From Alphaproteobacteria bacterium (GTDB lineage: Bacteria > Pseudomonadota > Alphaproteobacteria > Rhodobacterales > Rhodobacteraceae): a stretch of DNA of 64,000 bases. Below are positions 47,723-64,000 of the stretch, in pieces (position 1 is the stretch's first letter; each line of letters begins with the position of its first letter). Under the pieces are notes generated by a model, which saw only the letters and a program-made list of their open reading frames with translations, was not told the DNA's origin and ran no database searches. The stretch lies in the NCBI GenBank assembly GCA_030429495.1, contig JAUIFH010000002.1:1-64000 (forward strand), read 5' to 3'. Made by a program: the position numbers and the translations under genes.

Positions 47723-47934
47723 AGACCCTTGGTCGCGACCGTGCCCCAGCGACGCCGGCGCGGGATGCCCGAACTGGCCGTGGCGATCCGACCTTCCAGA
47801 TCGGCAATAGCATTGGCGAGTTCCGTGTCCGAGCTATAGGTCACGGTCTTGCCGTCATAGCTCACGCTGCGCAGCCCCGCGTAGCGCGCCTCCTGCAGCG
47901 CGGTGAGGAGCGCCCGCATCCGGTCGAGTTCCAT
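47719..47934 (-). CDS. gpW-like head-tail joining protein
   Basis: This 71-aa protein (RMRALLTALQEARYAGLRSV, SYDGKTVTYSSDTELANAIA, then LEGRIA) has the strand-hairpin between two helices of lambda gpW and related proteins. ATG 47934 overlaps the terminase stop (ATGA). The position between terminase and portal is standard for gpW. Confidence 0.85.
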   Translation of the reverse strand: MELDRMRALLTALQEARYAGLRSVSYDGKTVTYSSDTELANAIADLEGRIATASSGIPRRRRWGTVATKGL

Positions 47935-50063
47935 CAGTCCCTCATGAAGTTCGGCGTGTAAGCCCGGCGCTTCCGCCGCGGCGTCGTCAGGGTTCCGGCC
48001 CTGGGCTCGGCCGGATCGGCCTTCCTGGGTTCGGTTGGCCCCGCGACGGGCATCCGGGTCTCCACCCCGGCCTGCGCCTCGAGCCGCCGCCAGGTGGCCT
48101 CGTCCCAGCGGTCGGCGCCGAGGATCCAGGCCGCCGCGCGGGCATAGACGCGGGTATCGAGCGCCTCGTTCCGCTCGCGCATCTTCTGCCATTCCTGGCG
48201 GGCATAGCCGCGCCGGTCGCGGATCGTGACGAGCTGCTCGGCCACCAGCTGCTTCAGCCATTCGCTGTCGGCCCAGGTGGGAAGGTGGACCGTGCCGGGC
48301 GCATCGCGCACGCCCACGGCGCGGTCTTCGTCCGAGGGTCGCTCGATCCTGAGGAAGCGGTAGGTCTCGGTCTTGAAGGTGGCGGTCGCCACTGACCAAA
48401 GTCGCGCGCCGCGGCGCAGGCGACGCCCGGCTACGGTCGCATCGACATAGGTCGGGCCCGAGACGGGCGTCGCGCGGTTGAAGCTTTCGAGGCCCTTCAG
48501 AGGTGCCACCTGTTCAAAGCCGACCTTGCGCGACCAGGCATAGACGGCCGCCGCCTCGTAGCCGGTGTCGATGCCAAGCCGCGCCATGGTCATGTGGGCG
48601 CCATTGGCATGCTGCCAGGTCTGACCCAGAAGCGCGGTGAGCTTCTCCCAGGCGGCCGGATCGTCGGGCCCGCCCGGAATGACGATGTGATCGACGAGCC
48701 AGCTCTCGAGCCCACGGCCCCAGCCCCAGACATCGACCTCGATCCGGTCCTTCTGCACATCGGCACCCGCAGTGAGGAACAAGCCGCTTGCCGGTACGCT
48801 GCCAGGTTTCCAGGCCTCGCGGCGATCCGCCAGCCGCTGCCATTCCGGCGCGTCGCCACTCTCGACCCAGGTCTCGCCCAGAAGCGTGTTGCGCGCGGCG
48901 CGCAGCATCTCGTCCGACCCCTGCGCCGCGAGCCAGTCCCGCGCGATCTCGGCCCAGCTCTTCCACCCGAGCGGCGAATAGAGCGCCGAGAGATGAAAGC
49001 CGATCGACTGCGGATCGGCGGACACGGCCGTGGCCCGCCACTCGCCGCGCGCCAGCATCGCGGTCTTGTGATGCTCGGCGATCGGCCGCTCGCAGTTCTC
49101 GCAGTGATAGGCTGCGGTCTCCGGCCGCCCCTTCGCCCAGCGCAGCCGGTCGAACTGCAGCCACTGCATCGCCCCGCAGTGCGGGCAGGGGACAAAATAG
49201 CGCCGCTGGTCGGAGGCCTCGAACTCGCGCTCGATCCGGGAAAGCCCCCGGATCGTCGGGGTCGAGACCATGAAGACCTTGCGCCGATGCGCGAAGGTGG
49301 TGGTGCGCGCTTCCGCGAGCGTGACCGGATCACCCTCCTCATCGGCCGAGGCCGGATAGGCGTCGACCTCGTCGAGGAAGACATAGCGCGCCGGCATCGA
49401 GCGCAGGCCCGTGGCCGAGTTGGCCCCGGTCAGCACCAGGATGCCGCCCGGAAACTCCTTCGACAGCATCGAGTTGCCGGCATCGCGCGAGCGGGCGGGA
49501 TTGACTCGTTCCCGGAGCGCGGGGCTGTCCGCGATCAGCGGATCGATCCGACCGCGTGAGGAGCGCTTGGCCATCTCGACGGTGGGCAGCACCGCGAGCA
49601 TCGGGCCCGGTGCATGGTGGATGACAAAGCCGATCCAGTTGTTGCCGGCCTCCGTGGCGCCGACCTGCGCGGCCTTCATGAAGCTGATCCGCTGCGCCGT
49701 ATGGCCGGGCGAGAGCGCCTCCATGATGCCTCGCAGATAGGGCGTCCGCGCGGTCCTGTAGCGTCCCGGTTCGGCCGAGGCCCGCGAGGAGAGCCAGCGG
49801 TGCTGATCCGCCCAGTCCGCGACCGTCAGATCCGGATCGGGCCGCATCCCGCGCGACCAGGAGCGCAGGATGTCTTCGGCACCGTCGAAGCCAAGCTCGA
49901 GGGTCGTGGTCAGGTCGTTGTCGTCACGCCCTGTGCTTGCGCTTCGGGCATTCGTCCCTCGCGAAGGTCCACTGGACCTTTGCGTTTCGGTGTCACGAAA
50001 CCGGGCCTCATCATCCGAGCGAGACCCGGAGATCGGCGAGGGCGTCGAGCTGTTGGCGGACAT
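47934..50063 (-). CDS. terminase large subunit (lambda gpA family)
   Basis: This 709-aa packaging motor has an ATPase Walker A-like SFMKAAQVGATEAGNNWIG and Walker B in ARYVFLDEVDAYPA, with the motif III region VFMVSTPTIRG. A Zn-finger-like pair PCPHCGAMQW and HCENCERPIA follows, then a nuclease domain with Asp residues in AGADVQKDRIEVDVWGWG and LGIDTGYEAAAVYAW. The first 50 residues overlap the small subunit gene and look unstructured. It cuts and packages DNA at cos-type ends, judging by family. Confidence 0.92.
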   Translation of the reverse strand: MSANSSTPSPISGSRSDDEARFRDTETQRSSGPSRGTNARSASTGRDDNDLTTTLELGFDGAEDILRSWSRGMRPDPDLTVADWADQHRWLSSRASAEPGRYRTARTPYLRGIMEALSPGHTAQRISFMKAAQVGATEAGNNWIGFVIHHAPGPMLAVLPTVEMAKRSSRGRIDPLIADSPALRERVNPARSRDAGNSMLSKEFPGGILVLTGANSATGLRSMPARYVFLDEVDAYPASADEEGDPVTLAEARTTTFAHRRKVFMVSTPTIRGLSRIEREFEASDQRRYFVPCPHCGAMQWLQFDRLRWAKGRPETAAYHCENCERPIAEHHKTAMLARGEWRATAVSADPQSIGFHLSALYSPLGWKSWAEIARDWLAAQGSDEMLRAARNTLLGETWVESGDAPEWQRLADRREAWKPGSVPASGLFLTAGADVQKDRIEVDVWGWGRGLESWLVDHIVIPGGPDDPAAWEKLTALLGQTWQHANGAHMTMARLGIDTGYEAAAVYAWSRKVGFEQVAPLKGLESFNRATPVSGPTYVDATVAGRRLRRGARLWSVATATFKTETYRFLRIERPSDEDRAVGVRDAPGTVHLPTWADSEWLKQLVAEQLVTIRDRRGYARQEWQKMRERNEALDTRVYARAAAWILGADRWDEATWRRLEAQAGVETRMPVAGPTEPRKADPAEPRAGTLTTPRRKRRAYTPNFMRD

Positions 50064-50547
50064 GGGCTTCCAGCACCCTCTGCAGCACCGCGGTCCCGAT
50101 CGTCACCGATGCCCCGGTCTCCCGTTCCACCTCCGCCATGATCTCGGCCGCCATCGTTGCGGCCACCCGCCCGGGCCAGGTCACCCAGTGATCCCGCGCC
50201 TCGCGGGCGAGCCGGAACACCAGCGTCTCCGCCCGCGCCCGATCGACGAGCACGCCCTTCTTCTTCTGGATCGCGAGCTGGCGCTCCTGCGCCTGGTAGA
50301 CCGTGAGCGCGGTGCGGGCCTTGAGGTACGACGTGCTGTCGCCCGGACCGCTCACCATGCCGTCGCCGCCGAGACTGCGGCGCTGCTGGTCGGGATCGGT
50401 CATCCCCGCGCGCCGCGCGTCCGAGGCTTCCGCGTCGATCGAGCCGTCGTCGTGGAGCACCAGCCGTCCGGTCTTGCGCGCCTTCTGCACGCCGCCGCGC
50501 GAGAGCCCGGCATGGGCGGCATAGTCCCGTTCGCTCATGCCCTTCAT
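50011..50547 (-). CDS. terminase small subunit (Nu1-like)
   Basis: From ATG 50547 the product has 178 aa (ATG 50538 is also possible). The N-terminal DNA-binding helix-turn-helix reads SERDYAAHAGLSRGGVQKAR, followed by a long helical region (TALTVYQAQERQLAIQKKKG, VFRLAREARDHWVTWPGRVA). This resembles the Nu1/DUF1441 group that recognises the packaging site and recruits the large subunit. It overlaps the large subunit gene by 53 bases. Confidence 0.8.
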   Translation of the reverse strand: MKGMSERDYAAHAGLSRGGVQKARKTGRLVLHDDGSIDAEASDARRAGMTDPDQQRRSLGGDGMVSGPGDSTSYLKARTALTVYQAQERQLAIQKKKGVLVDRARAETLVFRLAREARDHWVTWPGRVAATMAAEIMAEVERETGASVTIGTAVLQRVLEAHVRQQLDALADLRVSLG

Positions 50548-50741
50548 GGGGAGGATGATCCGATCAAGGTGATGATATCGTTCGAAGTTCAGTTGATTGT
50601 GTTCCGCGTCAGAGCGAAGTTGATCGCGACGGATCGATGCAACGCGCCCGCTCGAGTACTGCATCGGCCCGCCCCCGCATTCCGCGGGGCCCGCCTCCGT
50701 AGAAGGCGCCGCATGTCGGACGCCAGCCTACGGAGCAAGCG

Positions 50742-51291: not shown

Positions 51292-52296
51292 TCAGCAGTA
51301 GTCGTCCATGCAGTCGTCGTAGCTTTCGCCGGTCAGCTCGCAGAAGGTTTTCAGAGCGCCCTGCAAGCTGAAGTATTGGTGTTCACTACGGTGATAGAAG
51401 AACTCACCCCGAACACCGACATGTGCGACCGCCCAGTCCTTGATAGCGTTGTCGCTTGGATCGTGCGTGAGGATAACGATGCTGTCCTCCGTCAGGCCAT
51501 GTTGTACGACGAGGCTCTGATAGAGATGATTTCTGGCGAAGACCTGGCCAAATTTCAGGTTGGCGGAATATCGTTCCAGCGCGTCCTCAGTCACCGTTTC
51601 CGGGCAAAGAGGGAATTCGGTTGGCACCCTCCACTTGACCTGAATTGCAACGGGCGTCAGCGACTCGTATTCTTCTGGCGGTGGTTCGTAACTCGCCCTC
51701 TCTCGGGTGCCATACAGCCATTCACCGAGCGCGCCACCGCTCGGAACCGACCCACTGTTCGCCCATGTTTGAAGACGAGCCTTTGCGGATGCAGCTTCCT
51801 CTTTGGACAGAGTTCGCATCCAGGAAATGTCGGGGAAGACCTTTTCGCTTTGGACCCGGCTGGGGTCCGCGAAGAAGGCTTCAATCGATCCGTAGACCAG
51901 TTCGATACGCCGTGCAGAGATTTCGTTCAGCAACACGTTTTCAAGGCGTGTGACCCAGCGCAAGTTTTCGGGCCGATTGTTCGCCCTGTTCGTGTCGATA
52001 TGATCGACGACATGCCGATCCGTGGGTGGCTCGCCATGAAACGCCACGCACACAACTCGGTGGACCGGCACGCCGCTCAAATACATGTAACCGGTCGAAA
52101 GACCCTGGCGCCCAAAGGTCCACTGGTCGTCAAGCGGCCTCGACCTCTGCCGTTTCTGTGGCAGGCGATGCGCAGAGCCATTGTCGCGAACCCTGTATCG
52201 CTCGCCCCTGTATTCGACCTCCACCTCGCGCTCGAAGATGTCGAGCAGCCGTGCGGCGTCGCCATTGCGGGAAGATGAATTGGACGGGCTACGCAT
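51292..52296 (-). CDS. HNH endonuclease (homing/mobile type)
   Basis: From ATG 52296, which follows GGAG at good spacing, the product has 334 aa. The HNH fold is clear: VPVHRVVCVAFHGEPPTDRH, VVDHIDTNRANNRPENLRWV, like phage HNH_3 endonucleases. The C-terminal 200 residues are not recognised. Base composition is lower in GC than that of neighbours, a sign of recent transfer. It could be a free-standing homing enzyme or a packaging helper. The 52297-52557 gap shows no gene. Confidence 0.82.
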   Translation of the reverse strand: MRSPSNSSSRNGDAARLLDIFEREVEVEYRGERYRVRDNGSAHRLPQKRQRSRPLDDQWTFGRQGLSTGYMYLSGVPVHRVVCVAFHGEPPTDRHVVDHIDTNRANNRPENLRWVTRLENVLLNEISARRIELVYGSIEAFFADPSRVQSEKVFPDISWMRTLSKEEAASAKARLQTWANSGSVPSGGALGEWLYGTRERASYEPPPEEYESLTPVAIQVKWRVPTEFPLCPETVTEDALERYSANLKFGQVFARNHLYQSLVVQHGLTEDSIVILTHDPSDNAIKDWAVAHVGVRGEFFYHRSEHQYFSLQGALKTFCELTGESYDDCMDDYC

Positions 52297-52557
52297 CAAC
52301 GACTCCGGGGTACAGCGGCCTTGCACATGCTGAAGGCGGCAGACCGGGTTCCCTTTCTCCTTCGGCGCGAACATTCGCAAGTTCGAACCACCTGGTCAAT
52401 CGCGGCGGGCCCTCTTTGCCGTCGCCAGGCAACACCGCCGCAAGAGGCTGTGTCCGGCACTATTTCGAAGCAGCACCGCCTGTTTTGCTCCGCGGCAATT
52501 GGCTGGGTGTGTCGTATTTGGGTCAATGCTCGATCCTGCCGGGCAGGAGGGGCGCGT

Positions 52558-53820
52558 TCATTCCGCGAGCCGTTTGGCCTTAAGGGCGGCGAAGCTCTCG
52601 CCAGTGTTGGCCAGCACCGCCTCCAAGCCCGTGAAGGACTGCCAGCGCTCGATGGCGACATCGACATAGGCCGGGTTCAGCTCGACGCCGAAGCAGACAC
52701 GCCCGGTGGTCTCGGCCGCGATCAGCGTGGTGCCGGATCCCATGAACGGCTCATAGATTGCCTGGCCGGGGCTCGAGTTGTTGAGGATCGGGCGGCGCAT
52801 GCATTCCACTGGCTTCTGCGTGCCATGGACCGTGTCGGCATCCTGGTCCCGGTTGGCGATCTGCCACAGCGTCGTCTGCTTCCGATCGCCCGCCCAATGC
52901 CCCTTGCCCTTTGCGCGCACCGCATACCAGCAGGGTTCGTGCTGCCAGTGATAGTCGCCGCGGCTGAGAACGAGGCGGTCCTTGGCCCAGATGATCTGCG
53001 AGCGGATGGCAAAGCCGGCAGCCGTCAGGCTGTCGGCCACGGTCGCGGCATGCAGCGCCCCGTGCCAGACATAGGCGACGTCGCCCGGAAACAGTGCCCA
53101 GGCTTCAAGCCAGTCGGCGCGGTCATCATTCAGCACCTTGCCGGTCCGCCTGGTCTTCGCGGCCCCTGCCTGGTTGCGCCAGGACGGATCGTATTCCACC
53201 CCATAGGGCGGGTCGGTGACCATAAGCAGCGGCTTCACATCGCCCAACAGACGGCCGACCACATCGGCTGCAGTGCTGTCACCGCAGATCAGCCGATGCA
53301 CGCCGAGCTGCCAGAGGTCGCCCGGGACCGATACCGGCGTAACCGGCAGCTCCGGCACATCGTCCTCTCCCTCGACCGGGCCGTCCCCGCCCAGCACATC
53401 GGGATCGCGCAAGAGCGCGTCCAGTTCCTCGTCGCCGATGCCGAGGAGCGCCAGGTCGAAATCCTCGGCCAAGAGCCCCGCGATCTCGTCGCGCAGCAAG
53501 GCCTCGTCCCAGTCGCCAAGCTCGGTCAGCTTGTTGTCGGCGATCCGGTAGGCCCGGCGCTCCGCCTCGTCCAGATGGCTGAGCCGGATCACCGGCACTT
53601 CCGCCAGTCCCAGCAAGGTCGCGGCGAGTACTCGACCGTGGCCGGCGATCAGCTCACCGTCATCGGCGACCATGCAGGGCACGGTCCAGCCGAACTTCGC
53701 CATGCTGGCGGCGATCTTCGCCACCTGGTCGTCGGCGTGCATCTTGGCATTGCGTGCATAGGGCCGCAGCCGGTCGATCGGCCAGCTCTCGATCTGGCTC
53801 GGCGCGAAGACGAGGCTCAT
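52558..53820 (-). CDS. fused ParB-like domain and DNA methyltransferase
   Basis: This 420-aa protein has an N-terminal ParB/Srx-like domain (DRLRPYARNAKMHADDQVAK, ELIAGHGRVLAATLLGLAEV). A class beta amino-methyltransferase follows with LLMVTDPPYGVEYDPSWRN (motif IV DPPY) and EPFMGSGTTLIAAETTGRVC (motif I FMGSGTT). It would methylate adenine or N4-cytosine and probably protects phage DNA from restriction. No partner endonuclease is next to it. Confidence 0.9.
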   Translation of the reverse strand: MSLVFAPSQIESWPIDRLRPYARNAKMHADDQVAKIAASMAKFGWTVPCMVADDGELIAGHGRVLAATLLGLAEVPVIRLSHLDEAERRAYRIADNKLTELGDWDEALLRDEIAGLLAEDFDLALLGIGDEELDALLRDPDVLGGDGPVEGEDDVPELPVTPVSVPGDLWQLGVHRLICGDSTAADVVGRLLGDVKPLLMVTDPPYGVEYDPSWRNQAGAAKTRRTGKVLNDDRADWLEAWALFPGDVAYVWHGALHAATVADSLTAAGFAIRSQIIWAKDRLVLSRGDYHWQHEPCWYAVRAKGKGHWAGDRKQTTLWQIANRDQDADTVHGTQKPVECMRRPILNNSSPGQAIYEPFMGSGTTLIAAETTGRVCFGVELNPAYVDVAIERWQSFTGLEAVLANTGESFAALKAKRLAE

Positions 53821-53994
53821 GGGCGGGTTCCTGATGGGGGGAAAACGAAAGCGCCCGCGAGGGGTTTCCTCCGGGCGCTATTCTTCGATGATCAAGGGGT
53901 AGGTCAACGGGGGCAGCCTTGTCAATCGAAAAACGGAAGTGGATTCAATATGTTCCGGATCGGGTGGCTTCCGGCAGTAGGTGGATTCTCCGAA

Positions 53995-54027
53995 GGTGGA
54001 TTCCTGGATTCCTGCGAGGAATCCACC
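53995..54027. repeat. inverted repeat, arms GGTGGATTCC/GGAATCCACC (copy 1)
   Basis: The arm GGTGGATTCC at 53995-54004 pairs perfectly with GGAATCCACC at 54018-54027 across 13 bases that hold another GGATTCC. Related half copies (GTGGATTC) lie near 53939 and 53981. A second complete copy is at 54091-54128. The 53821-54200 stretch around them holds no gene. Confidence 0.8.
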
Positions 54028-54090
54028 CTGGCCGATCCGTGATTCCATAAGCCTTTGATTTGGAGTCGATTTTCCGGCCGGTGCCGGCGG

Positions 54091-54128
54091 GGTGGATTCC
54101 TACTGGATTCCCCGGTGAGGAATCCACC
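54091..54128. repeat. inverted repeat, arms GGTGGATTCC/GGAATCCACC (copy 2)
   Basis: The same 10-base arms as copy 1 stand at 54091-54100 and 54119-54128, with an 18-base loop that again contains GGATTCC. Two identical long palindromes 64 bases apart suggest protein-binding sites, a replication or recombination site, or a small mobile hairpin element. They lie at the edge between the prophage-linked methyltransferase and the nuclease-helicase genes. Confidence 0.8.
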
Positions 54129-54200
54129 CGCTAGCGAACTGCCGCGCTGCGCCCCCCCGCATACGTTCAGCGCCGGGGAGGAACCAGAGGAGGGGGCGGC

Positions 54201-54428
54201 CTAAGCCCGTATCAGTTGCCCCTGCGGGTTGTAAGCGACATCCGCATCGCGCCCGTGTCGTACATTTGACGGGGTATCCGAGAATGCTGGGGGCCGCCCT
54301 TCGTTAAGTTGCCCGTCGAACGCCGGGCCTATTGGTTTGGCAAAGGTGGCTTTTGTCACTGTGCCTGGGCTCGCCACGTCGAGGTGTTTCTCCGTCGTAA
54401 GCTTTTCAAAGCTCTCCGATAATGGCAA
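54201..54428 (-). CDS. short unassigned frame in the 53.8-54.5 kb gap
   Basis: A 75-codon frame (FEKLTTEKHLDVASPGTVTK, VRHGRDADVAYNPQGQLIRA) has normal composition but matches no family I know. It may be a remnant of a larger gene at the prophage border or a chance frame. It is the only candidate between the inverted repeats and the AddB-like gene. Confidence 0.25.
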   Translation of the reverse strand: MPLSESFEKLTTEKHLDVASPGTVTKATFAKPIGPAFDGQLNEGRPPAFSDTPSNVRHGRDADVAYNPQGQLIRA

Positions 54429-54501
54429 AATTTGATCGAAACCTCCGCCGAGGTCACGAGGGTGTTCGAGGAGTAGGGGCTAGACAGCGGGATGGGCAGG
54501 A

Positions 54502-57174
54502 ATGATGGACATCGTGTTCGGGCTGCACGCAGATGCAGGCGCCTGGCCGGATCACGGCGGGACCGGGACCGGCGCGTCCGGCGCGCCGGTCGTCGGGCCA
54601 AACGGCCTTGTCGAAATTCTGGAGACAGCGCGCGGTCTGGGATCCCCTTCGACTCCCAACGTTGTCCGCATCGCGGCCTTTCAAGCCGCACTTGATCGGC
54701 TAGAAAGCCCGCCGCGCTTTTGGAATAAGTCGCTCGAGGTGGACGGCTGGGCCGTCGCCCGTACCCTCTTGCACTGGCGCGACGAACTCGTGGACGCCGG
54801 CTGGAGTTCAGAAAGTAATTGGACCGAGCCACGGTTGGCGGATCTCGCTGCGGCCGATGGAGCCGCGACCGACCTGTCACCCGGCCTCGCAGATCGCGTT
54901 GCGGCGTTGGTGGCAGACCTGGCGAGTGAACCGAAGTTGCCGATCCGCCGAATCCGCCTCATTGACCCGCGTGCGGTCCATTCGGTCGGTTGGCGGAGAC
55001 TGCTCGATCGGTTGGAAGCGTGTGGCGTTGTGGTGGAGCAGCTCTCGCCAGCACCCGCGGCCCCAGCGGACACTGCACTCGGACGATTGCAGCGCTGGAT
55101 GACCGGCGCCGGGCCGATCGAGGGCCAACCGGACGGAACAGTCACCATTGCGACCTCTGCGAGTGCGGCGCTTGCCGCCGAGATTACCGGCCAATTGTTC
55201 GCCGAGTGTGGAGATCGAGCAGCCGTCCTGATCGCGCAGGATGCCGACACCCACCTCCTGGACCATGGTTTTTGCACTGCGGGTCAGCCACGGGCTGGGC
55301 GTAGCCGGTCGTCGGCGCACCGGGGATCGATGCAGATCCTCCTACTCGCGTTCAAGATTGCGTGGGTTCCTTTCGACCCGCGGGCGCTGATGGAGTTGCT
55401 CGCCTTCCCGACCTCGCCGATCGCCCCCCGGGCGGCCCGGCGGCTTGCCGAGGCGCTCGAGGAAGCGCCCGGGCGTGGGGGCGCCGCTTGGCAGGACGCA
55501 TGGGTTAAGATCGGCGAAGCGGAAATCGCCGCGGCCGAGGGCGATCCGGCCAAGCTCAGAAAGGCGCGTGCGCGGCTGGAGCGCTGGCGGGCTTGGGTCG
55601 AGCCGGAACCGACGGATCCGGTGGCTGGCATGTCTCTCGCCGCGGCGATCGCCGCCTGCGATCGAACGGTCGCTTGGGCGGGGGCGCGGCACGCCATCGA
55701 CCGGGATCAGCTTTATGCCGCTACCGTAGCGCTCGCCGGTGACGTGCGCGCCGCGCTCGTGAAGCTCGGCCGCGACGCTCTACCGCGAACGCTGATCGAG
55801 CGCATCATCGACCAGGCGCTCGACATCGGTCACGACAATCCCAACGCCGCGGCGGAGGCTGCGCGATGGCGTTGCGTTTCGCACCCGGGAAGCGTCTGGG
55901 CACCGGCGGAGATGGTGGTATGGTGGAACTTCCGAGCGACGCAGGAGGGTCTTCAGCGGCAGCCCTGGACGCAGAGCGAACGGGAAGAACTTGCGAAAAG
56001 GGGCTGCCCCGTCGACGACAAGGGCCTAGCCGGACGGGCAGCAAGCGCGGCCTGGGAGCGAGCCGTGCTCCAGGCGCGGGGGAACCTCCTCCTCATCGCC
56101 GGCGGTCTCGATTCGGGCGACGACGAGGCGTTGCACCCGTTGGCGCACCGCATAGCTCCCGCGACGGAGAAGCTGGCGTCGTGCGTCATGATCGAGGACG
56201 CGCTCGCACGTCCGAGCATCACGCTGGCCGGCGCAGAGCTGCGACAGGAGCCGGTGCCGATCTCGCCCCTGCCCGAAGCTCGCTCGATTTGGCTTGCACC
56301 GATAGGGTATCGGGACCGGCTCGAAGGTCTGGTCCACTCGGCCACCTCGTTCGAGGCGGGTCTCGGCTGCCATTTGAAGTGGGCCCTCAAGCACGTGGCC
56401 CGGCTGCGGCCGGGACGCGTGCGCTCGATCCCGGACGCCAACCAGTTGCTAGGTAACCTCGCGCACGCACTGGCGCAGGAGATCTTCGCACCGGGAGATC
56501 CTCCGCCCGTCGAAGCCGCGAGGGCGCGAGCCGCAGAACTGCTTGACGTGCTAATCGAACAAATAGCTGCGCCGCTTCACCTGCCCGAACTCGCAGCCCA
56601 GCTTGCCGAGGCGCACGGCCGACTTCCGGCCGCGATGGCCGAACTGGCGCGGACGTTGGCTGTCAACGAACTGACGGTGGAGGAGGCGGAAAAGCAAGTC
56701 AGCGCCACGTTCGAGAACGCGCTGTCGGTGCGCGGCGCCGTCGACCTGGTCGCTCGCGACAAGGACGGTCATCATGTGATCATCGACCTGAAGTGGACCC
56801 GCAGCGAAAAGAAGCGACGCGAGGAACTCGAGCAGGGTAACGCCGTCCAGCTCGCCACCTACGGAGCGATGACGGCGGGCGACGAGCCCTATCGCGCCGG
56901 TTACTTCCTACTCAATCAGCGCCAATTCGCGACGCTCGTCGAAGGCGGCCTTATCGGCCGCGCGGTGGAAGGTGCGCGGGGCTTTCCGGCCACTTGGGCC
57001 GCCGTGCGCGAAAGCTGGCGGAAGTTGGGCGAACTCGCCGATACGGGCCAGCTCGTGGCGTGCGGCGTGGAAGGACATGAAGAGCACCTTCCGGCCAATC
57101 TCCCGATCGTGCTCGAGGCCAACTGCAAGTGGTGCGACTATCAGACGCTCTGCCGCGTGAGGGGATTGGGATGA
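54502..57174 (+). CDS. AddB-like protein with PD-(D/E)XK nuclease and Fe-S cluster cysteines
   Basis: This 890-aa protein has an inactive helicase-like N-terminal half without a clear Walker A. A PD-(D/E)XK nuclease lies at the end: Asp 748 in [20 protein letters not shown], then Asp 762-Leu-Lys 764 and a Gln-rich QLATYGAM. Four cysteines, 623 (GLGCHLKW) and 875/878/884 ([10 protein letters not shown]), match the spacing that holds the [4Fe-4S] cluster in AddB. The N-terminus differs from chromosomal AddB. Its stop overlaps the start of the AddA-like gene (ATGA), so the two form one complex. Confidence 0.82.
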
Positions 57175-60100
57175 ACCAGGTGACCAGCAATACCCACAAG
57201 CAGGTCGACACGATCATCGCGTCGGCGGGCACAGGCAAGACCTACACGCTCGTCGAGCGGATCAGGTCCGCGGTCGACGCTGGCCTCGCTGCCGACCGAC
57301 TTCTCGCCACGACCTTTACGAAGAAGGCGGCGGCGGAGCTGGCAGGGCGCATCCGCTCCAAGCTAATCGAAGGCGGTCGGCCCGAGCTCGCGGCCGCGAT
57401 GCTTGTCGCCCGCATCGGTACAGTGAACAGCGTCTGCGGCTCGCTCATCTCCGAGTTCGCGTTCGAACTAGGCCGATCGCCCATCGCGGAAGTGATTCCA
57501 GAAGACCGACAGAAGGCCATCTTCGCTCGGGCCATCGGTCCGGCCATGTCGCACTTCGCCTCGTCGATCCAAGAATTTGCCGAGAGGTTCGACCTGCCGG
57601 CGCAGGGATACCTCCTGCACGGGCGCCGCATTCACGGATGGCAGGACCATCTTCGTCGCATCGTCGATCTGGCGCGATCCAACGGCATCGGGCCGGAGCG
57701 CATCGGCGCCTCTGCCGACCATTCGGTGACCAGCCTAACGCGGCTCCTGCCCATGGCTGCGCCTGGCCAGACCGGTGAGTCGCTCGACGCCGCGCTCTCC
57801 GAAGCGATCGTCGACTGCATGGCCGCCATCTCGGCGCGAAGACCGACCCTCAAGCAAGGCACGCTCAAAAAGGACGTCCCCTGCGTCGAGGCGGCGGCCG
57901 CACGGCTCCAGCGAGGTGAGCATTTGACGTGGGTGGAGTGGGCGCGCTTGTCGAAGCTTGGCGCAACCAAGGCCGACGAGGATCTATTCGTAGACGTGGT
58001 CGCCGCGGCCGCCGCCCATGCGCGGCACCCACGCTTGCGCCGCGACGTAGAAACCTTCATCCGGCTGCTATTTGAATGCGCCGCTCGGTGTCTCGCCGAC
58101 TACGCCGCGTTCAAGCACGCACGTGGTCTCGTGGACTTCGTTGACCAGGAAATGCTCGCCCTAGAGATTTTGCGTAGTTCCGACAACCACGCCCGCCTTG
58201 GCGAGCTGATCGGCGCCGTCTTCGTGGACGAATATCAGGATTCTAGTCCGATTCAGATTGCAATTTTCTCAGCCCTCGCCAGCATCGCTCCCGTGAACGT
58301 GTGGGTCGGCGACCCCAAGCAATCCATCTATGGCTTCCGCGATGCTGATCCCGCACTGACACAGGCCGCCGCCCGGACGATCACGACCGACACCGGTGGC
58401 ACGTTCGAGTTCTTGCGAAAGTCCTACAGGACGCGACCTACCCTCGGTCAGTTTGTCAACGCCGCTTTCGAGCCGAACTTCCGTCGCACCGGGATGGGGA
58501 CGAAAGAAATCACCTTCGACGACTACGACCGCACCGAGGCCGACGATGACGTTGCGCCGCTTTCTGTGTGGACACTGGCCGGGTCGAAAAAGGAAGACCG
58601 GACCGAGGACCTCGCCAGGCAGGTCGCCGGCCTTCTCCGCGACGGCTCCGCTTGGCCCGTCAACCCGAAAGGCGGAGAGACGAGAGCGGCACGCGGCGGA
58701 GACGTCGCCGTGCTCTGCCGGTCGAACGATCAGGTGCTGCAGCTCGCATCGGCGCTGTCGCGACGCGGCATACGGGTGGCTGTGGAGAGGACCGGACTGC
58801 TCGACCAGCCCGAAGTCGAGCTCGCCCTCGCCGCGTTGCGCTGGGTCGCCGATCCGAGCGACGGCTTGGCGCTCGCCGAGATTGCCCGCCTCGCATGCGA
58901 TGACGACAGGTGGCTTAATGCGGCCTTCGAGGAGAACAACGTCGTGGCTCTCGAAACCTGTGTTCCGTTCAAGGACGAGCTGAGGAAATTGCGCGCCCTA
59001 GCACCGCAGCTCACCCCGGGCGAAATGTTCGACGACGTGCTTTACGTGGAAGGCATACTGGCGACCGTCGCCCGCTGGGGCTTGGCAGAGCAGCGGCTGG
59101 CGAACCTCGAAGCCGTGCGTTCGCTTCTGGATGCCTACCAGGAGGAGCAGCGTTCTGAGCGGCAGGCCGCCACGCTCGCCGGGGCATGCGAGTGGCTCGC
59201 CGCCCTAGACGCGCCGGCGCAGCCCCAAAGCCGACACCCGGAGGCGGTGAACCTGCTCACCTACCACGGCGCCAAGGGTCTGGAGTGGCCTATTGTCGTG
59301 CTCACCGGGCTCGAACACGAGGTGAGGGGCAATCCGTTCGGCGTCTACGCGGAGGAGCTCGATCAGCCGGATTGGCGCGACCCCTTGGCCGGACGCGTGC
59401 TCCGCTACTGGCCATGGCCGTACGGAGCGCAGGCGAAGGACGTCGGCCTCGACCGCGCGGCCGCGTTAAGCTCCGAGGGCGAGCGGACCCTCAACGAGGA
59501 GAAACTGGAGAGGACCCGCCTACTATATGTTGGCATGACGCGCGCTCGCGATCATCTTGCATTCGCGACGTCTGGGAAGACCGACTGGCTGGACGAGCTG
59601 GCGACCGACGCCGGGCTGCCTCTGATCAACCTGGCAAGCAATCCGCTGGAGATCGGTGGGGAGGCGTTCGCGTTACGCTCAGCGCCGGGTATGGCGGAGC
59701 AGGACGACGCGCCGCCGCTTGAATTCGCCCGGCCGGCCGCGGTCCGGCAAGCTCATCCGCCGCTTCGATTGAGTCCTAGCAATCAGTCGTTTGCCGGAAC
59801 GGTGCGCGTAGCCGAGACCGTGCAGCTAGGCGCGCGCATACCCCTGGTTGGCAGTCCCGACGTGCAGGCTGTCGGCGAAGCCTTCCATCGCTTCTTCGCC
59901 TGCGATGATCCTGCGCGGCCCGCACCGTCACGCTTGGCGCTGGCTGGCGACATGCTGCGTCGCTGGGGTGCGCCTCAACTCGAGCCCAAAGCCCTGGTCG
60001 AGGCGGCGCACCGTCTCGACGCGTTTCTCGACCAGCGCTTCGGCGGCTCAGCGCGCCTGCGGGAGTGGCCGGTCTACGCGACTGAGGACCTTCAGGTCAT

Positions 60101-60341
60101 CTCGGGGAGGATTGACCTGCTGATCGACGACGGCGGCGGCTTCGTCGTCATTGATCACAAAAGTTTCCCTGGTGCGATGGATTTGGACGATGAACGCCTG
60201 AAAGCCCTTGGTGGCCAGGTCGATCTTTATTCCCGGGCTCTCCGCAATGCGACCGCGCGCGAGTGCCTTGAATATTGGATCCACCAGCCGATCGCGGGTG
60301 TGATGATCAGGGTCGACCTGGAGGCTGCTGAAGCCGTCTGA
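57171..60341 (+). CDS. AddA-like UvrD helicase with C-terminal nuclease domain
   Basis: From ATG 57171, which overlaps the AddB-like stop, the product has 1056 aa. SF1A helicase motifs are all visible: ASAGTGKT (17-24), [13 protein letters not shown] (II), [16 protein letters not shown] (III), [11 protein letters not shown] (IV), [18 protein letters not shown] (V) and [14 protein letters not shown] (VI). The C-terminal PD-(D/E)XK nuclease has Asp 982 in GRIDLLIDD, Asp 995 and Lys 997 in VIDHKSF. With the AddB-like partner it should unwind and cut double-strand ends. It may be a second, mobile AddAB used for recombination or against phage DNA. Confidence 0.87.
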
Positions 60342-60656
60342 CGAGCCCGGCCCGTCGAACCTTTTCTCGCTATCTGAAAGGAGCCGTCAAATTAGATGGG
60401 GACGTGGCGTAGTACCTGCTTTCCACCCGTTGCTGCCGGTTGGCGCGGCTTGTCGATCTTATGAGCGGAGCGTCCCTATTTGTGCCAAGAGGCAACGCAA
60501 GCGGACCGTCCGCTATCCTTGGTCGTTGTTGGGACCTTGTCCTACTCCACGCAATGTCCTCATTCAGAAGTTAGCTCCGTTCCGTGTTTGGTTCCATTCT
60601 GACCGGTTGAACCGCTCCATCAGGAACAGGGCAGATTCGCTAAGTTCATCCTCTGG
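60342..60656. other. 315-base gap between convergent genes, no gene seen
   Basis: Between the ends of the AddA-like gene and the convergent large helicase gene no open frame has protein-like content on either strand. No clear hairpin followed by a T-run was found either. The sequence is less GC-rich than the flanks and may hold transcription terminators or a recombination joint. Confidence 0.5.
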
Positions 60657-63600
60657 TCACCTGATCTCCAAGACCCGGACTTCCTTAATGTGCGAACCGA
60701 CCTGGTATTCGACCTCGTCGCCGACTTGGGCATCGAGCAAGGCCTGACCTAACGGCGTATGAACCCCGATTTTGCCCTCGTCTGGTGCATTCTCACCCTC
60801 GACCAAGGTGAATGCGAGCTTTTTGCCGTCGGTAATATGCTCGATCTTGACCTTCGAGCCCAGCGCCACGGTCGGCTCGGCCGCGACGCGGCTCGCGGCG
60901 GTGAAGAGATCGCTGCCGGCCGGCGGCTCGAAGGGCAGGCTCGCCTGTTCCGGCTTCGGTCGTGCCGGCGGCGGGGCGGGGTGGGCGGCCCGCGCCGGTG
61001 TTTTTTCGATCTCGGCCGCAGTATCTTCCGCGAGATGCGTCAGGAGCGCCATCGCGTCGAGGCGCTCGGAATGCTTCACTCCCTTCGCCTTGGCATGAAC
61101 CAGAGCGGCCTCGATCGCCTCCTTTAGGGTCTCGATTTCTTTCCTCGGGTTGCGGAACCAATCGGTCGACCAGATCCGGTGCAGACGCCAGCCAAGGCCT
61201 TCGAGTACCTCCTGGCGGAGTCTGTCGCGGTCACGGCTCGATCTCGAACTGTGGTAGGGCGCGCCATCGCATTCCACGCCGAGGATGTAGCCGTAGGGCC
61301 AGTCCGGGTGCCGGACGCCCAGATCGATGCGGAACCCGGCGACGCCCACCTGCGGGACCACCTCGCAGCCAAGCCGCTCGATCTGTGCGGCGACGAAATC
61401 CTCGAAAGGACTTTCGGTTCCGCCCTGGGGGCCTGCGGCGTCGGGGATGTGGCCGGTCTTCGAATATTCGAGCCACCCCCGGAACATCCGCACTCCGAGA
61501 CTCTTCGCGCCATCGACGAGGATGTCGGTCGGTTTCATTGAAGTAAATGTCACGATCTTCCGCTTGGCCCGGGTGAAGAGCACGTTAAGACGGCGATGGC
61601 CGTGCGCCGAATTGATCGGACCGAAGCGTTGGAGAACCTTGGCACCGGGCGCTTCCGGGCCGTAGAGCGTTGAGATGAACATTACGTCGCGCTCGTCGCC
61701 CTGGATCGTCTCGATGTTCTTGATGAAGAACTCCTCGAGCGCGTCGTTCTCCTCCTCCCATTTCTCGACGAAGGCCTGAACCTTGGGGTTGCGGTCACGC
61801 TCTCTTTCGAACTCCTCCAGAATCAGGTCTTTCTGGTCCGAGTTCATTGTGCAGATGCCGAGCGAGAGTTCCGGCCGGTGAGTCATGTGATGGACCGCAG
61901 CCGCGACGACGGCGCGGGCCTCGATCTCATTGCGGCGCCCCTTGTAGATGCCGGGCACCTCGACAAGTTCGACGCCGAGGTCAGGATGGTCCTCCTGCGC
62001 GGAGGGAAAGATCGTCAGCTCCCCCTTATACATCCATTGGTTCGAGAACTGGATCAGCGCCGAGTGCCGCGAACGGTAGTGCCAGCGGAGCTGGCGCACT
62101 GGCATAAACGCAACGTTCGCCATGTCGAGAATGCTCTCACTGTCCTCCCGCAGGTCGTCGTCGGTGTCGCTGTCGTCGAGCACCTTCTGGAAGAAGCTCG
62201 TAGGCGGTAGCTGCTTGGTGTCGCCGACGATCACCGACTGATCGGCGCGGCTGACTGCCCCGATCGCGTTCTCAGGTGTCATCTGCGAGGCCTCGTCGAT
62301 CACGACGAGATCGAACCGCATTTCTTGTTGCAGGTATTGGGCCACGGCCAGAGGCGACATCATCCAACAGGGTTTCAGCTCAAGGAGCGCGTGCCCGGCG
62401 CGACTTGTCAGTTCTCGAATGCTGATGCGCCGCTTCTTCTTGTACAGCTCGTTGTAAATCAGGCTCATGTCGGTGAAGCTCGACTTTCGTCCGATATTGT
62501 TGCCGGCCGGCGGATGAGCGTTCTCAAGGAGCTCCTGGACTACAACCGCCCGTGATAGCTCGATCAGTTCGCGGTCCTTCGAGCGGATCTCGCCGCGGAT
62601 GCGGTCGAAGTCCGGGCCGTCGTAGCCTTGTAGCGCAGCTCCCCACTCCTGGTAGGCAAGATCCGCCATCGAGCGTGCGATGAGCGCGCGGACGATCGGC
62701 GCAAGCCGCGCGGGGTCGAAGCCCTCGCCTTCGGCGACAGCCCAGTCGATCAGATCGCCTAGCCCCTGCCCCCGCAGACTGTCCTCGGCGCGTTTCAGCT
62801 GCGCCCTGTCGAGTAGTGACCGCGGATCGGCCGCGGCCTCCTTGAGCTCGCTCACGCGCACCGCGAGGCCGGCCAGGGTGGAAAGGTCTTCCGGCAGCCC
62901 GAGGTCGGAGGCGAAGTTCGCGACGCGGGTCTCGAGTCCACTGCGCCGCGCAGCGAAGCTCTCGAATTCCTGCGCCATCGCACCCACGCGGACGGAGCGG
63001 ATTGCCGTCAGCGCGAGATCCGCGTTATCGCTGGCGGCGATCGCCTCGGCGAGGTCGCACTCGACCCCGAGCACATCCGTGGGGGTGGTGATACCTGAAA
63101 AGCGCGAGCCGAGCACGCTCTGGGCAGAGCTCTTCTCGATCTCGCGGGTGAGTTCGGCCTCTGATGATTTCCTGGACAGTATCTCTTCGATGTCAGAAAG
63201 CGGCAGGCTGGTCTTGTCTCGGAAGAGTTGGAGATGGCTCTCCGCCTCTGTGATGTAGCGTTTCTCCGCCTCGGCCATGTCCTTAAGTTCACGGAGCTTC
63301 CGCTCGGCTTCGGCCAGGGTCATGGGAGGCGTCTCCTCCACTGCGGCAAAGACAAGCACCGGATCGAGTTCGCCTGTTTCAAGATAGGCCTTGAGATCGA
63401 CGCTGGAGCCGGCGACCTCCTTGCAGATCGCATGGAAGGTCACTACCCGGCCGATGGCGTCCATGTCGGTGTTGAAACCGCGAAAATGCGGTCCGAACCG
63501 TTCAGCGTACCGCGCCTCATTGTCGAAATTGCGCCGGCTATCGAGCCAGTCGGCGTATTCGCGCATCCGCCGCGCCATATCAGCCTGGCTATCCTCGCGC

Positions 63601-64000
63601 CGACCTCCGAGGGCGTTGGCATAGGTGTTTCGGGACGCCTTATAGGTGGAGCCCATGCGCCCGAAAAAGCCTGCGCGATGGATCGCGTCAGCGGCAGTCC
63701 TGAGCTCGCCAGCGTTGTGGGTACCGTCCGCTGAGGGCAGCGCTTGCCGAATGCGGCCGATGTCGCTCGACAGGCGCGACAGATGGCTCTCAATCTCGAC
63801 GGCGATCGCGGTGACCGATCCCATCGGGTCGCCGCGCCGCAGGGCCAGCACATCCGGCGCTTGAGCAGCGATCCTTTGCGCCGCGGTACATATCTCTGCA
63901 AGCGTCCGGCTCATGCCAGTCCAGCTCTGCGGCAGTCTTTGAGCCGCGGCCAGCACCTTGGTCGCGGCCGAGATCGCTTCCTCGATCTCGGCGAGGCGGT
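60657..64000 (-). CDS. very large SF1 helicase with Vsr-like nuclease and GreA/B-like domain (5' end outside window)
   Basis: At least 1,114 codons are open, continuing past the window edge. A GTG at 63956 is internal, since the coil AEIEEAISAAT is read upstream of it. A long helical part is followed by UPF1-type SF1 motifs (FDLVVIDEASQMTPENAIGA, VIVGDTKQLPP, LRWHYRSRH, ETIQGDERDVMFIS, LNVLFTRAKRKI). Then comes a Vsr/MTES_1575-like endonuclease (ESPFEDFVAAQIERLG, FRIDLGV, GVECDGAPYHSSRSSRDRDR, LHRIWSTDWFRNP). The last 70 residues (KIGVHTPLGQALLDAQVGDE) are a GreA/GreB-type C-terminal domain. This is the build of predicted anti-phage helicase-nucleases. Confidence 0.85.
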   Translation of the reverse strand, partial: RLAEIEEAISAATKVLAAAQRLPQSWTGMSRTLAEICTAAQRIAAQAPDVLALRRGDPMGSVTAIAVEIESHLSRLSSDIGRIRQALPSADGTHNAGELRTAADAIHRAGFFGRMGSTYKASRNTYANALGGRREDSQADMARRMREYADWLDSRRNFDNEARYAERFGPHFRGFNTDMDAIGRVVTFHAICKEVAGSSVDLKAYLETGELDPVLVFAAVEETPPMTLAEAERKLRELKDMAEAEKRYITEAESHLQLFRDKTSLPLSDIEEILSRKSSEAELTREIEKSSAQSVLGSRFSGITTPTDVLGVECDLAEAIAASDNADLALTAIRSVRVGAMAQEFESFAARRSGLETRVANFASDLGLPEDLSTLAGLAVRVSELKEAAADPRSLLDRAQLKRAEDSLRGQGLGDLIDWAVAEGEGFDPARLAPIVRALIARSMADLAYQEWGAALQGYDGPDFDRIRGEIRSKDRELIELSRAVVVQELLENAHPPAGNNIGRKSSFTDMSLIYNELYKKKRRISIRELTSRAGHALLELKPCWMMSPLAVAQYLQQEMRFDLVVIDEASQMTPENAIGAVSRADQSVIVGDTKQLPPTSFFQKVLDDSDTDDDLREDSESILDMANVAFMPVRQLRWHYRSRHSALIQFSNQWMYKGELTIFPSAQEDHPDLGVELVEVPGIYKGRRNEIEARAVVAAAVHHMTHRPELSLGICTMNSDQKDLILEEFERERDRNPKVQAFVEKWEEENDALEEFFIKNIETIQGDERDVMFISTLYGPEAPGAKVLQRFGPINSAHGHRRLNVLFTRAKRKIVTFTSMKPTDILVDGAKSLGVRMFRGWLEYSKTGHIPDAAGPQGGTESPFEDFVAAQIERLGCEVVPQVGVAGFRIDLGVRHPDWPYGYILGVECDGAPYHSSRSSRDRDRLRQEVLEGLGWRLHRIWSTDWFRNPRKEIETLKEAIEAALVHAKAKGVKHSERLDAMALLTHLAEDTAAEIEKTPARAAHPAPPPARPKPEQASLPFEPPAGSDLFTAASRVAAEPTVALGSKVKIEHITDGKKLAFTLVEGENAPDEGKIGVHTPLGQALLDAQVGDEVEYQVGSHIKEVRVLEIR

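Follow-up and report, generated by a model that had tools for sequence, protein, structure and literature searches.

What is a complete AddAB-type helicase-nuclease doing among the cargo of a prophage? The question is raised by the window analysed here, a stretch of 64,000 nucleotides at the start of contig JAUIFH010000002.1 (hereafter C12) of an alphaproteobacterium from the Rhodobacteraceae (GenBank assembly GCA_030429495.1). Towards its right end the window holds an AddB-like and an AddA-like gene, met by the convergent gene of a giant helicase. The original prediction, made from the nucleotide letters, had taken the three for a new defence module. The AddB-AddA pair is found to be a two-gene family of its own, distinct from the housekeeping AddAB, and its candidacy as a new defence system of two genes is well supported. 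Probably the pair is a mobile helicase-nuclease of the AddAB type, with two subunits, that is carried as cargo directed against phages (foreign DNA), where we infer the anti-phage activity.

A two-gene family on the AddAB plan

The observation of the three genes is confirmed. The AddB-like protein combines a C-terminal PDDEXK_1 domain (E 1.4e-25) with four Fe-S-type cysteines (C623, C875, C878 and C884) and has no Walker A motif, in agreement with the predicted Fe-S nuclease with an inactive helicase half. For the AddA-like protein, a domain search returned UvrD N and UvrD C domains together with a C-terminal PDDEXK_1 domain. Its open frame as listed begins at 57129, but the ATG at 57171 overlaps the stop codon of the AddB-like gene (ATGA); the coupling of the two genes had thus been read correctly.

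A scan of GTDB genomes, in which the best 80 of 113 candidates were retained, yielded 76 pair loci. The AddA-like gene directly adjoins the AddB-like gene in 68 of the 70 loci that extend 300 bp or more beyond AddB, the two exceptions being L065 (a fragment) and L088. Where the two genes are separate, a stop and a possible start overlap in 53 of 67 loci. At one of the 68, in Beijerinckia sp. L45, both subunits are encoded by a single open frame (L035:9668-15790), a natural fusion which suggests that they work as one complex.

In the AddB-like alignment, H655, D748, D762, K764, Q783 and Y787 are invariant (70/70 rows), all four Fe-S-type cysteines are found in 57 rows, that of the window included, and a Walker A pattern occurs in only one. 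The AddA alignment keeps the Walker A and DE residues in all 66 rows and the nuclease residues D982, D995 and K997 in 64, the other two having gaps there. The AlphaFold model of the AddB-like protein (predicted local distance difference test, pLDDT, 92.5; predicted template-modelling score, pTM, 0.86) has AddB from Bacillus subtilis as its best PDB match in Foldseek (3u44_B, E 4.8e-19), with a TM-score of 0.61 by query and 0.50 by target at 11% identity. The profiles of the mobile and canonical AddB proteins were aligned by hhalign with a probability of 97.9 (E 4e-13; 94.2% with the smaller profile A1). A sequence search of the PDB with the AddB profile gave weak nuclease matches only, and here the fold search decided; the best PDB sequence match of the AddA-like protein is AddA from B. 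subtilis. Because of the kept residues, the AddB fold, and the AddB profile and AddA sequence matches, the pair is assigned a single motor and two nucleases, in keeping with the AddAB plan. Adjacency, an AddA motor with its nuclease, and an AddB with an ATPase-less half, a nuclease and the corresponding fold are all present, and the domain and fold searches found no domain beyond this plan.

The same genome contains a second AddB-AddA pair on contig C6, the AddA of which sits in the canonical clade. Across 32 pair-bearing genomes, a canonical AddA scores above the TIGR02784 cut-off in 22; nine of the remaining ten lie outside the alphaproteobacteria, and the tenth (G201) has its AddA split over two contigs. 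Together, the C6 pair and these coexisting AddA proteins rule out that the mobile pair is the only addAB of its host, a point on which the original prediction depended. In the 16 non-alphaproteobacterial pair genomes, AddA_Gpos (TIGR02785) is above its cut-off in two and RecB (TIGR00609) in none, with two close to it (683 and 620 vs 696 bits). The AddA of the window itself stays below both canonical cut-offs (150.3 vs 860.75 bits for TIGR02784 and 171.7 vs 707.65 bits for TIGR02785).

In a tree of 97 AddA rows, built by a quick method (LG+G4) and with long branches flagged by the program, all 66 rows of the pair group in a single clade (SH-aLRT 100), to which neither the 23 canonical alphaproteobacterial rows nor the 8 others belong. 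The tree that the original prediction had called for thus places the AddA of the pair outside the resident clade. The AddB side differs as well: the C-terminal CxxC-C motif is present in 57 of 70 mobile AddB-like proteins and in 0 of 18 canonical alphaproteobacterial ones. The mobile pair is therefore not a recent copy of the resident AddAB, and the separate AddA clade rules this out likewise. The canonical alphaproteobacterial AddB proteins (L153-L172) lack the Fe-S-type cysteine motif, unlike most of the mobile family; AddB from B. subtilis carries such cysteines.

The predicted mobility of the pair is upheld by its carriage on plasmids and its patchy distribution in genomes. PLSDB contains 26 plasmid records with relatives of the pair, of which 17 are conjugative and 17 belong to rhizobial genera; at least 80% of the query is covered in 22 of them, while four Variovorax records are weak. 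The pair is found in only 2 of 195 related genomes and in 5 of 385 genomes of the class, its own included in both counts. The pair rows of the tree bear the labels of ten NCBI phyla, with many metagenome-assembled genomes (MAGs) among them; many of the non-alphaproteobacterial members are MAG contigs, the host labels of which may be wrong. The pairs of a Rhizobium MAG (L055) and a Reyranella MAG (L061) are separated by a near-zero branch length, reflecting either a recent transfer or assembly contamination.

Defence-rich surroundings and the prophage slot

The neighbourhood of the pair was compared with that of the canonical AddA in 13 of 20 matched genomes, with the pair removed or masked in the test set and the canonical AddB in the control. 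Open reading frames (ORFs) were chosen mechanically (longest, non-overlapping, at least 200 amino acids (aa)). At E 1e-10, 92 proteins around the pair match 172 PADLOC families, a family count that overstates the number of defence proteins as one protein matches many models and the methylase models are broad. In contrast, the 103 proteins around the canonical AddA in the same genomes gave no match. The comparison with known defence models proposed in the original prediction accordingly finds the pair in defence-rich neighbourhoods and the canonical AddA not. When ten large neighbours, chosen by hand, were tested singly, seven matched PADLOC models (HamB-like, BilD, REase/PDC-S02 type, dGTPase, HEC-06/Orf5, ZacA and SngA). 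The closest relative of the pair, in Xanthobacter (L023), has a CBASS-type cyclase nearby, and annotated plasmids carry CBASS, multiubiquitin, AbiE, SIR2 and restriction genes near the pair; at the Agrobacterium rubi locus, only toxin-antitoxin genes of this sort are present. No neighbour family exceeds 9 of 89 pair loci. The commonest one, a UvrD-type helicase family of about 1145 aa, occurs at L011, L015, L027, L032, L038, L045, L051, L077 and L095, and it adjoins multiubiquitin genes in L011 and L015.

In the window, the three genes were said to lie beside a prophage. The prophage is there; the genes, however, sit inside it, with phage genes on both sides. On one side these are the genes of an integrase (C12:70082-71350), an O-like replication protein and a phrog_9306 protein, and on the other those of the terminase, portal, tape measure and endolysin. 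PHROG matches were obtained for 8 of 10 proteins scanned around the locus. A search for an attachment-site repeat gave no exact 14-base match between positions 71331-71760 and 1-48000. The features of the locus are collected in Table 1.

Table 1. Coordinates of the features at the locus (window positions; C12 denotes positions on the contig)
Feature	Coordinates	Strand	Remarks
AddB-like subunit, 890 aa	54502..57174	+	degenerate superfamily 1 (SF1)-type N-terminal half, C-terminal PD-(D/E)XK nuclease
AddA-like subunit, 1056 aa	57171..60341	+	SF1A helicase motifs and C-terminal PD-(D/E)XK nuclease
Hhe-type giant, C-terminal 1113 residues in window	60657..64000	-	gene continues to C12:66128
Variable cargo slot, in-window part	53821..64000	.	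whole slot C12:53821-66373, 12.55 kb, between methyltransferase (MTase) and phrog_9306 gene
N6_N4 DNA methyltransferase (weak ParB_N part)	52558..53820	-	conserved left slot border, 37/38 sister loci
HNH endonuclease gene	51292..52380	-	present in 4/38 sister prophage loci
Terminase small subunit (TerS)	50011..50664	-	
Terminase large subunit (TerL)	47934..50063	-	

Sister prophages (L173-L252) were taken as the best 80 IMG/VR loci by TerL, among which the TerL relatives are 80-90% identical; the family thus has at least 80 relatives. Conserved genes were counted in those 38 loci whose sequence extends 4 kb or more ahead of TerL. All 38 have TerS and a 178-aa ORF on the + strand, and the MTase that borders the slot is 87-94% identical in matches of at least 350 aa and 53-64% identical in five short ones. 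The far border, the phrog_9306 gene, was located in 19 of 28 sister records tested. In these 19 records the slot measures 2,689-11,249 bp (median 8,549), compared to 12,554 bp here. The HNH endonuclease gene is 86-87% identical in the sister loci that have it, was not found in the others, and resembles a mobile homing gene.

The content of the slot changes rapidly. In 24 of the 38 sister loci, most of which cover only the ~3-6.5 kb of the slot adjoining the MTase, the ORFs ahead of the MTase make up 69 families, 61 of them with a single member. At E 1e-8, 310 PADLOC families match the 83 ORFs on this side of the slot (two of which, both in L252, fall beyond the far border), and none match the 87 ORFs of an equally long stretch beyond TerL in these 24 prophages, the only region used for comparison. 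Of 20 large slot proteins, chosen by hand, 14 match PADLOC singly, and these come from 13 of 19 prophages. They include type I restriction and methylase subunits, DISARM DrmA, type III methylase and restriction proteins, MzaB, NsnA/PD-T4-2, PDC-M28B and C, a NERD-UvrD type helicase, a DruM-type cytosine methylase, and a weak DpdE/ZorD match. The locus thus varies while the phage genes around it are conserved, and it is richer in defence genes than the stretch past TerL. We read the slot between the MTase and the phrog_9306 gene as a prophage defence hotspot of the P2/P4 kind, and the defence hot spot suspected in the original prediction is seen across the sister prophages. The pair is probably anti-viral too, because the slot holds anti-virus genes in many of these. 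The defence slot belongs to a widespread alphaproteobacterial prophage family, and a search of open-licence PMC papers found no description of a phrog_9306/MTase slot. It is a place to look for more defence genes in alphaproteobacteria.

The giant helicase and the competing readings

The whole giant counts 1823 aa, starts with an ATG at C12:66128 and is convergent with the pair. It contains a DUF4011 domain, an SF1 helicase, an MTES_1575 restriction endonuclease (REase) and a C-terminal GreA_GreB domain. The convergent orientation, the helicase and the GreA/GreB domain had been recognized correctly; the nuclease, predicted to be Vsr-like, is the Pfam family MTES_1575 instead. The part inside the window matches the Hhe, ProA and PDC-S37 models; this 1113-aa fragment scores 715.2 bits with NF042953 (Hhe), the cut-off of which is 2000.

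That the giant works with the pair in a single defence module is very improbable. The three genes do share one slot and are convergent here. Of the 90 pair loci surveyed (L010-L099, often on short contigs), however, L045 alone has a relative of the giant close by, an Hhe-type gene whose match ends before the Gre part. One further genome (G183) holds both the pair and a giant part that reaches into Gre, on different contigs. Among 49 pair-bearing genomes, eight have an Hhe-type C-terminus and two reach the Gre part, against 29 and five of the 385 genomes of the class (own genome included). The phage contig L100 encodes a Gre-tailed, Hhe-type giant (L100:418-5991, 79% nucleotide identity) followed downstream by a serine recombinase and a repressor-like gene, and no AddAB was found within 8 kb downstream and 0.4 kb upstream of it. 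The linkage claimed for the three genes therefore does not hold in relatives, and the three-gene module is rejected. For the same reasons (the single relative near the pair, the L100 giant without AddAB and the genome counts), we take the giant for a defence cargo of its own that shares the slot. A query with the nuclease and Gre parts was matched over at least 80% of its length in only two of 361 plasmid records, in one of which Gre falls just below the Pfam cut-off (25.6 vs 26.9 bits). In our reading, Hhe-type proteins rarely carry such a Gre tail; that it helps to detect stalled RNA polymerase is a guess.

For the pair, the following mechanism is proposed. As a complex, the AddA-like and AddB-like subunits would load onto the free ends of double-stranded DNA from competitor phages, either on its entry or during its replication. 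The AddA motor would unwind the DNA, while the two nucleases would cut both strands. Such a degradation from the ends is presumed from the biochemistry of AddAB, as given in PMC4824097. Given its strong divergence from the resident AddAB, the pair may ignore the Chi sites of the host or escape phage inhibitors aimed at the resident enzyme, and it would then serve as a backup in the destruction of linear foreign DNA.

Several observations weigh against a defence function. The reading rests on position and neighbours, and the AddB-like protein lacks a model of its own in PADLOC 2023, where its best match has E 0.0035. The pair is nearly absent from phage collections, with one match among phage records (78% covered) and one locus in IMG/VR. 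The sequenced stretches of the 38 sister loci, most of which cover only the MTase side of the slot, contain no match to AddA, AddB or the giant. One of the pair genes is split over frames in four of the 76 genome loci (L037, L043, L046 and L053). Three of the ten large pair neighbours and six of the 20 slot proteins tested singly had no PADLOC match, and the overstatement in the family counts applies here too. Furthermore, PMC5704561 describes a two-gene UvrD and Cas4-like operon of Clostridiales, which may or may not be akin to the pair; its contexts are judged not indicative of defence, and repair is suggested for it. This operon and the limits of the slot data slightly lower our confidence that the pair is anti-phage cargo.

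The Clostridiales operon also lends weight to the view that the pair is a spare repair or recombination engine, serving the mobile element in recombination or plasmid stability rather than in defence. The homology to AddAB, the kept catalytic residues and the 26 plasmid records would fit such a role. However, 22 of the 23 alphaproteobacterial hosts tested already have a canonical AddA above the cut-off (G201, with its split gene, being the last), the slot is otherwise occupied mostly by genes for restriction and defence, and the neighbourhood is unlike that of the housekeeping addAB. We hold this explanation to be unlikely. A somewhat smaller chance still is given to the pair as a guard, which would watch the state of the resident AddAB and act when a phage inhibits it, rather than simply degrade DNA. 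The coexisting canonical AddA in 22 of the 32 genomes would supply the enzyme to be guarded, and defence systems such as OLD and Gabija are reported to respond to the loss of RecBCD, while the lack of a domain beyond the AddAB plan in the pair speaks against it.

The reading as mobile anti-phage cargo is preferred. Many phages block RecBCD and AddAB, which serve the cell in housekeeping repair. In its widest form, the pair could be an undescribed two-gene anti-phage system into which an entire AddAB-type end-resection machine has been turned. No longer bound to the Chi and repair role of the host enzyme, it would be spread by plasmids and prophages over hosts labelled as ten phyla, destroy linear foreign DNA as a second line, and perhaps be immune to phage inhibitors of AddAB/RecBCD. 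This wider proposal is tentative, with belief and doubt nearly in balance. No AddAB-type defence system was found in a search of open-licence PMC papers. If the proposal is true, the core end-resection machine has itself been recruited as a transferable immune system. It also poses a testable question: does a second, Chi-blind or inhibitor-resistant AddAB aid survival against phages that disarm the resident enzyme?

Relation to known systems

The resident alphaproteobacterial AddAB (TIGR02784) is a homologous enzyme found in the same genomes as the pair. The two differ in their separate AddA clades, in the CxxC-C motif (0/18 in resident AddB) and in the 103 neighbours without PADLOC matches around the resident enzyme. 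AddAB of the B. subtilis type (3U44/4CEJ) shares with the pair one SF1A motor, two PD-(D/E)XK nucleases, a degenerate AddB helicase half and the Fe-S-type cysteines. Its AddB chain counts 1141 residues compared to 890 aa in the window, with 11% identity over the fold alignment, and the AddA of the window stays at 171.7 bits against the cut-off of 707.65. Moreover, the pair is mobile and patchy and has defence-rich surroundings.

Gabija (GajAB) is also a two-gene system of a nuclease and a UvrD-type helicase, and the AddA part matches GajB models. The partner in the pair, however, is an AddB-type PDDEXK protein; it contains PDDEXK_1 only and gave no GajA match at E 0.1, so that an identity with Gabija is rejected. 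The UvrD and Cas4-like proteins of PMC5704561 likewise link a PF12705-type nuclease to a UvrD helicase. According to the same paper, UvrD/Cas4-like (pfam12705) fusions lie in defence contexts; unlike the pair, these are single helicase-nucleases.

The giant resembles Hhe, the anti-phage protein with DUF4011, in its DUF4011, SF1 helicase and MTES_1575 REase, and both the PDC-S37 and Hhe models match; it differs by its C-terminal GreA/GreB domain. As for the slot, the hotspots of P2/P4 prophages are described in PMC9122126 as rapidly changing loci with many defence genes, flanked by conserved phage genes and close to the packaging end. The slot in the window shares the rapid change, the conserved phage-gene borders, the position near the packaging end and the wealth of defence genes. 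It belongs to another phage group, is bordered by the MTase and the phrog_9306 gene, and is larger, with 2.7-12.6 kb compared to ~1-5 kb for P2/P4.

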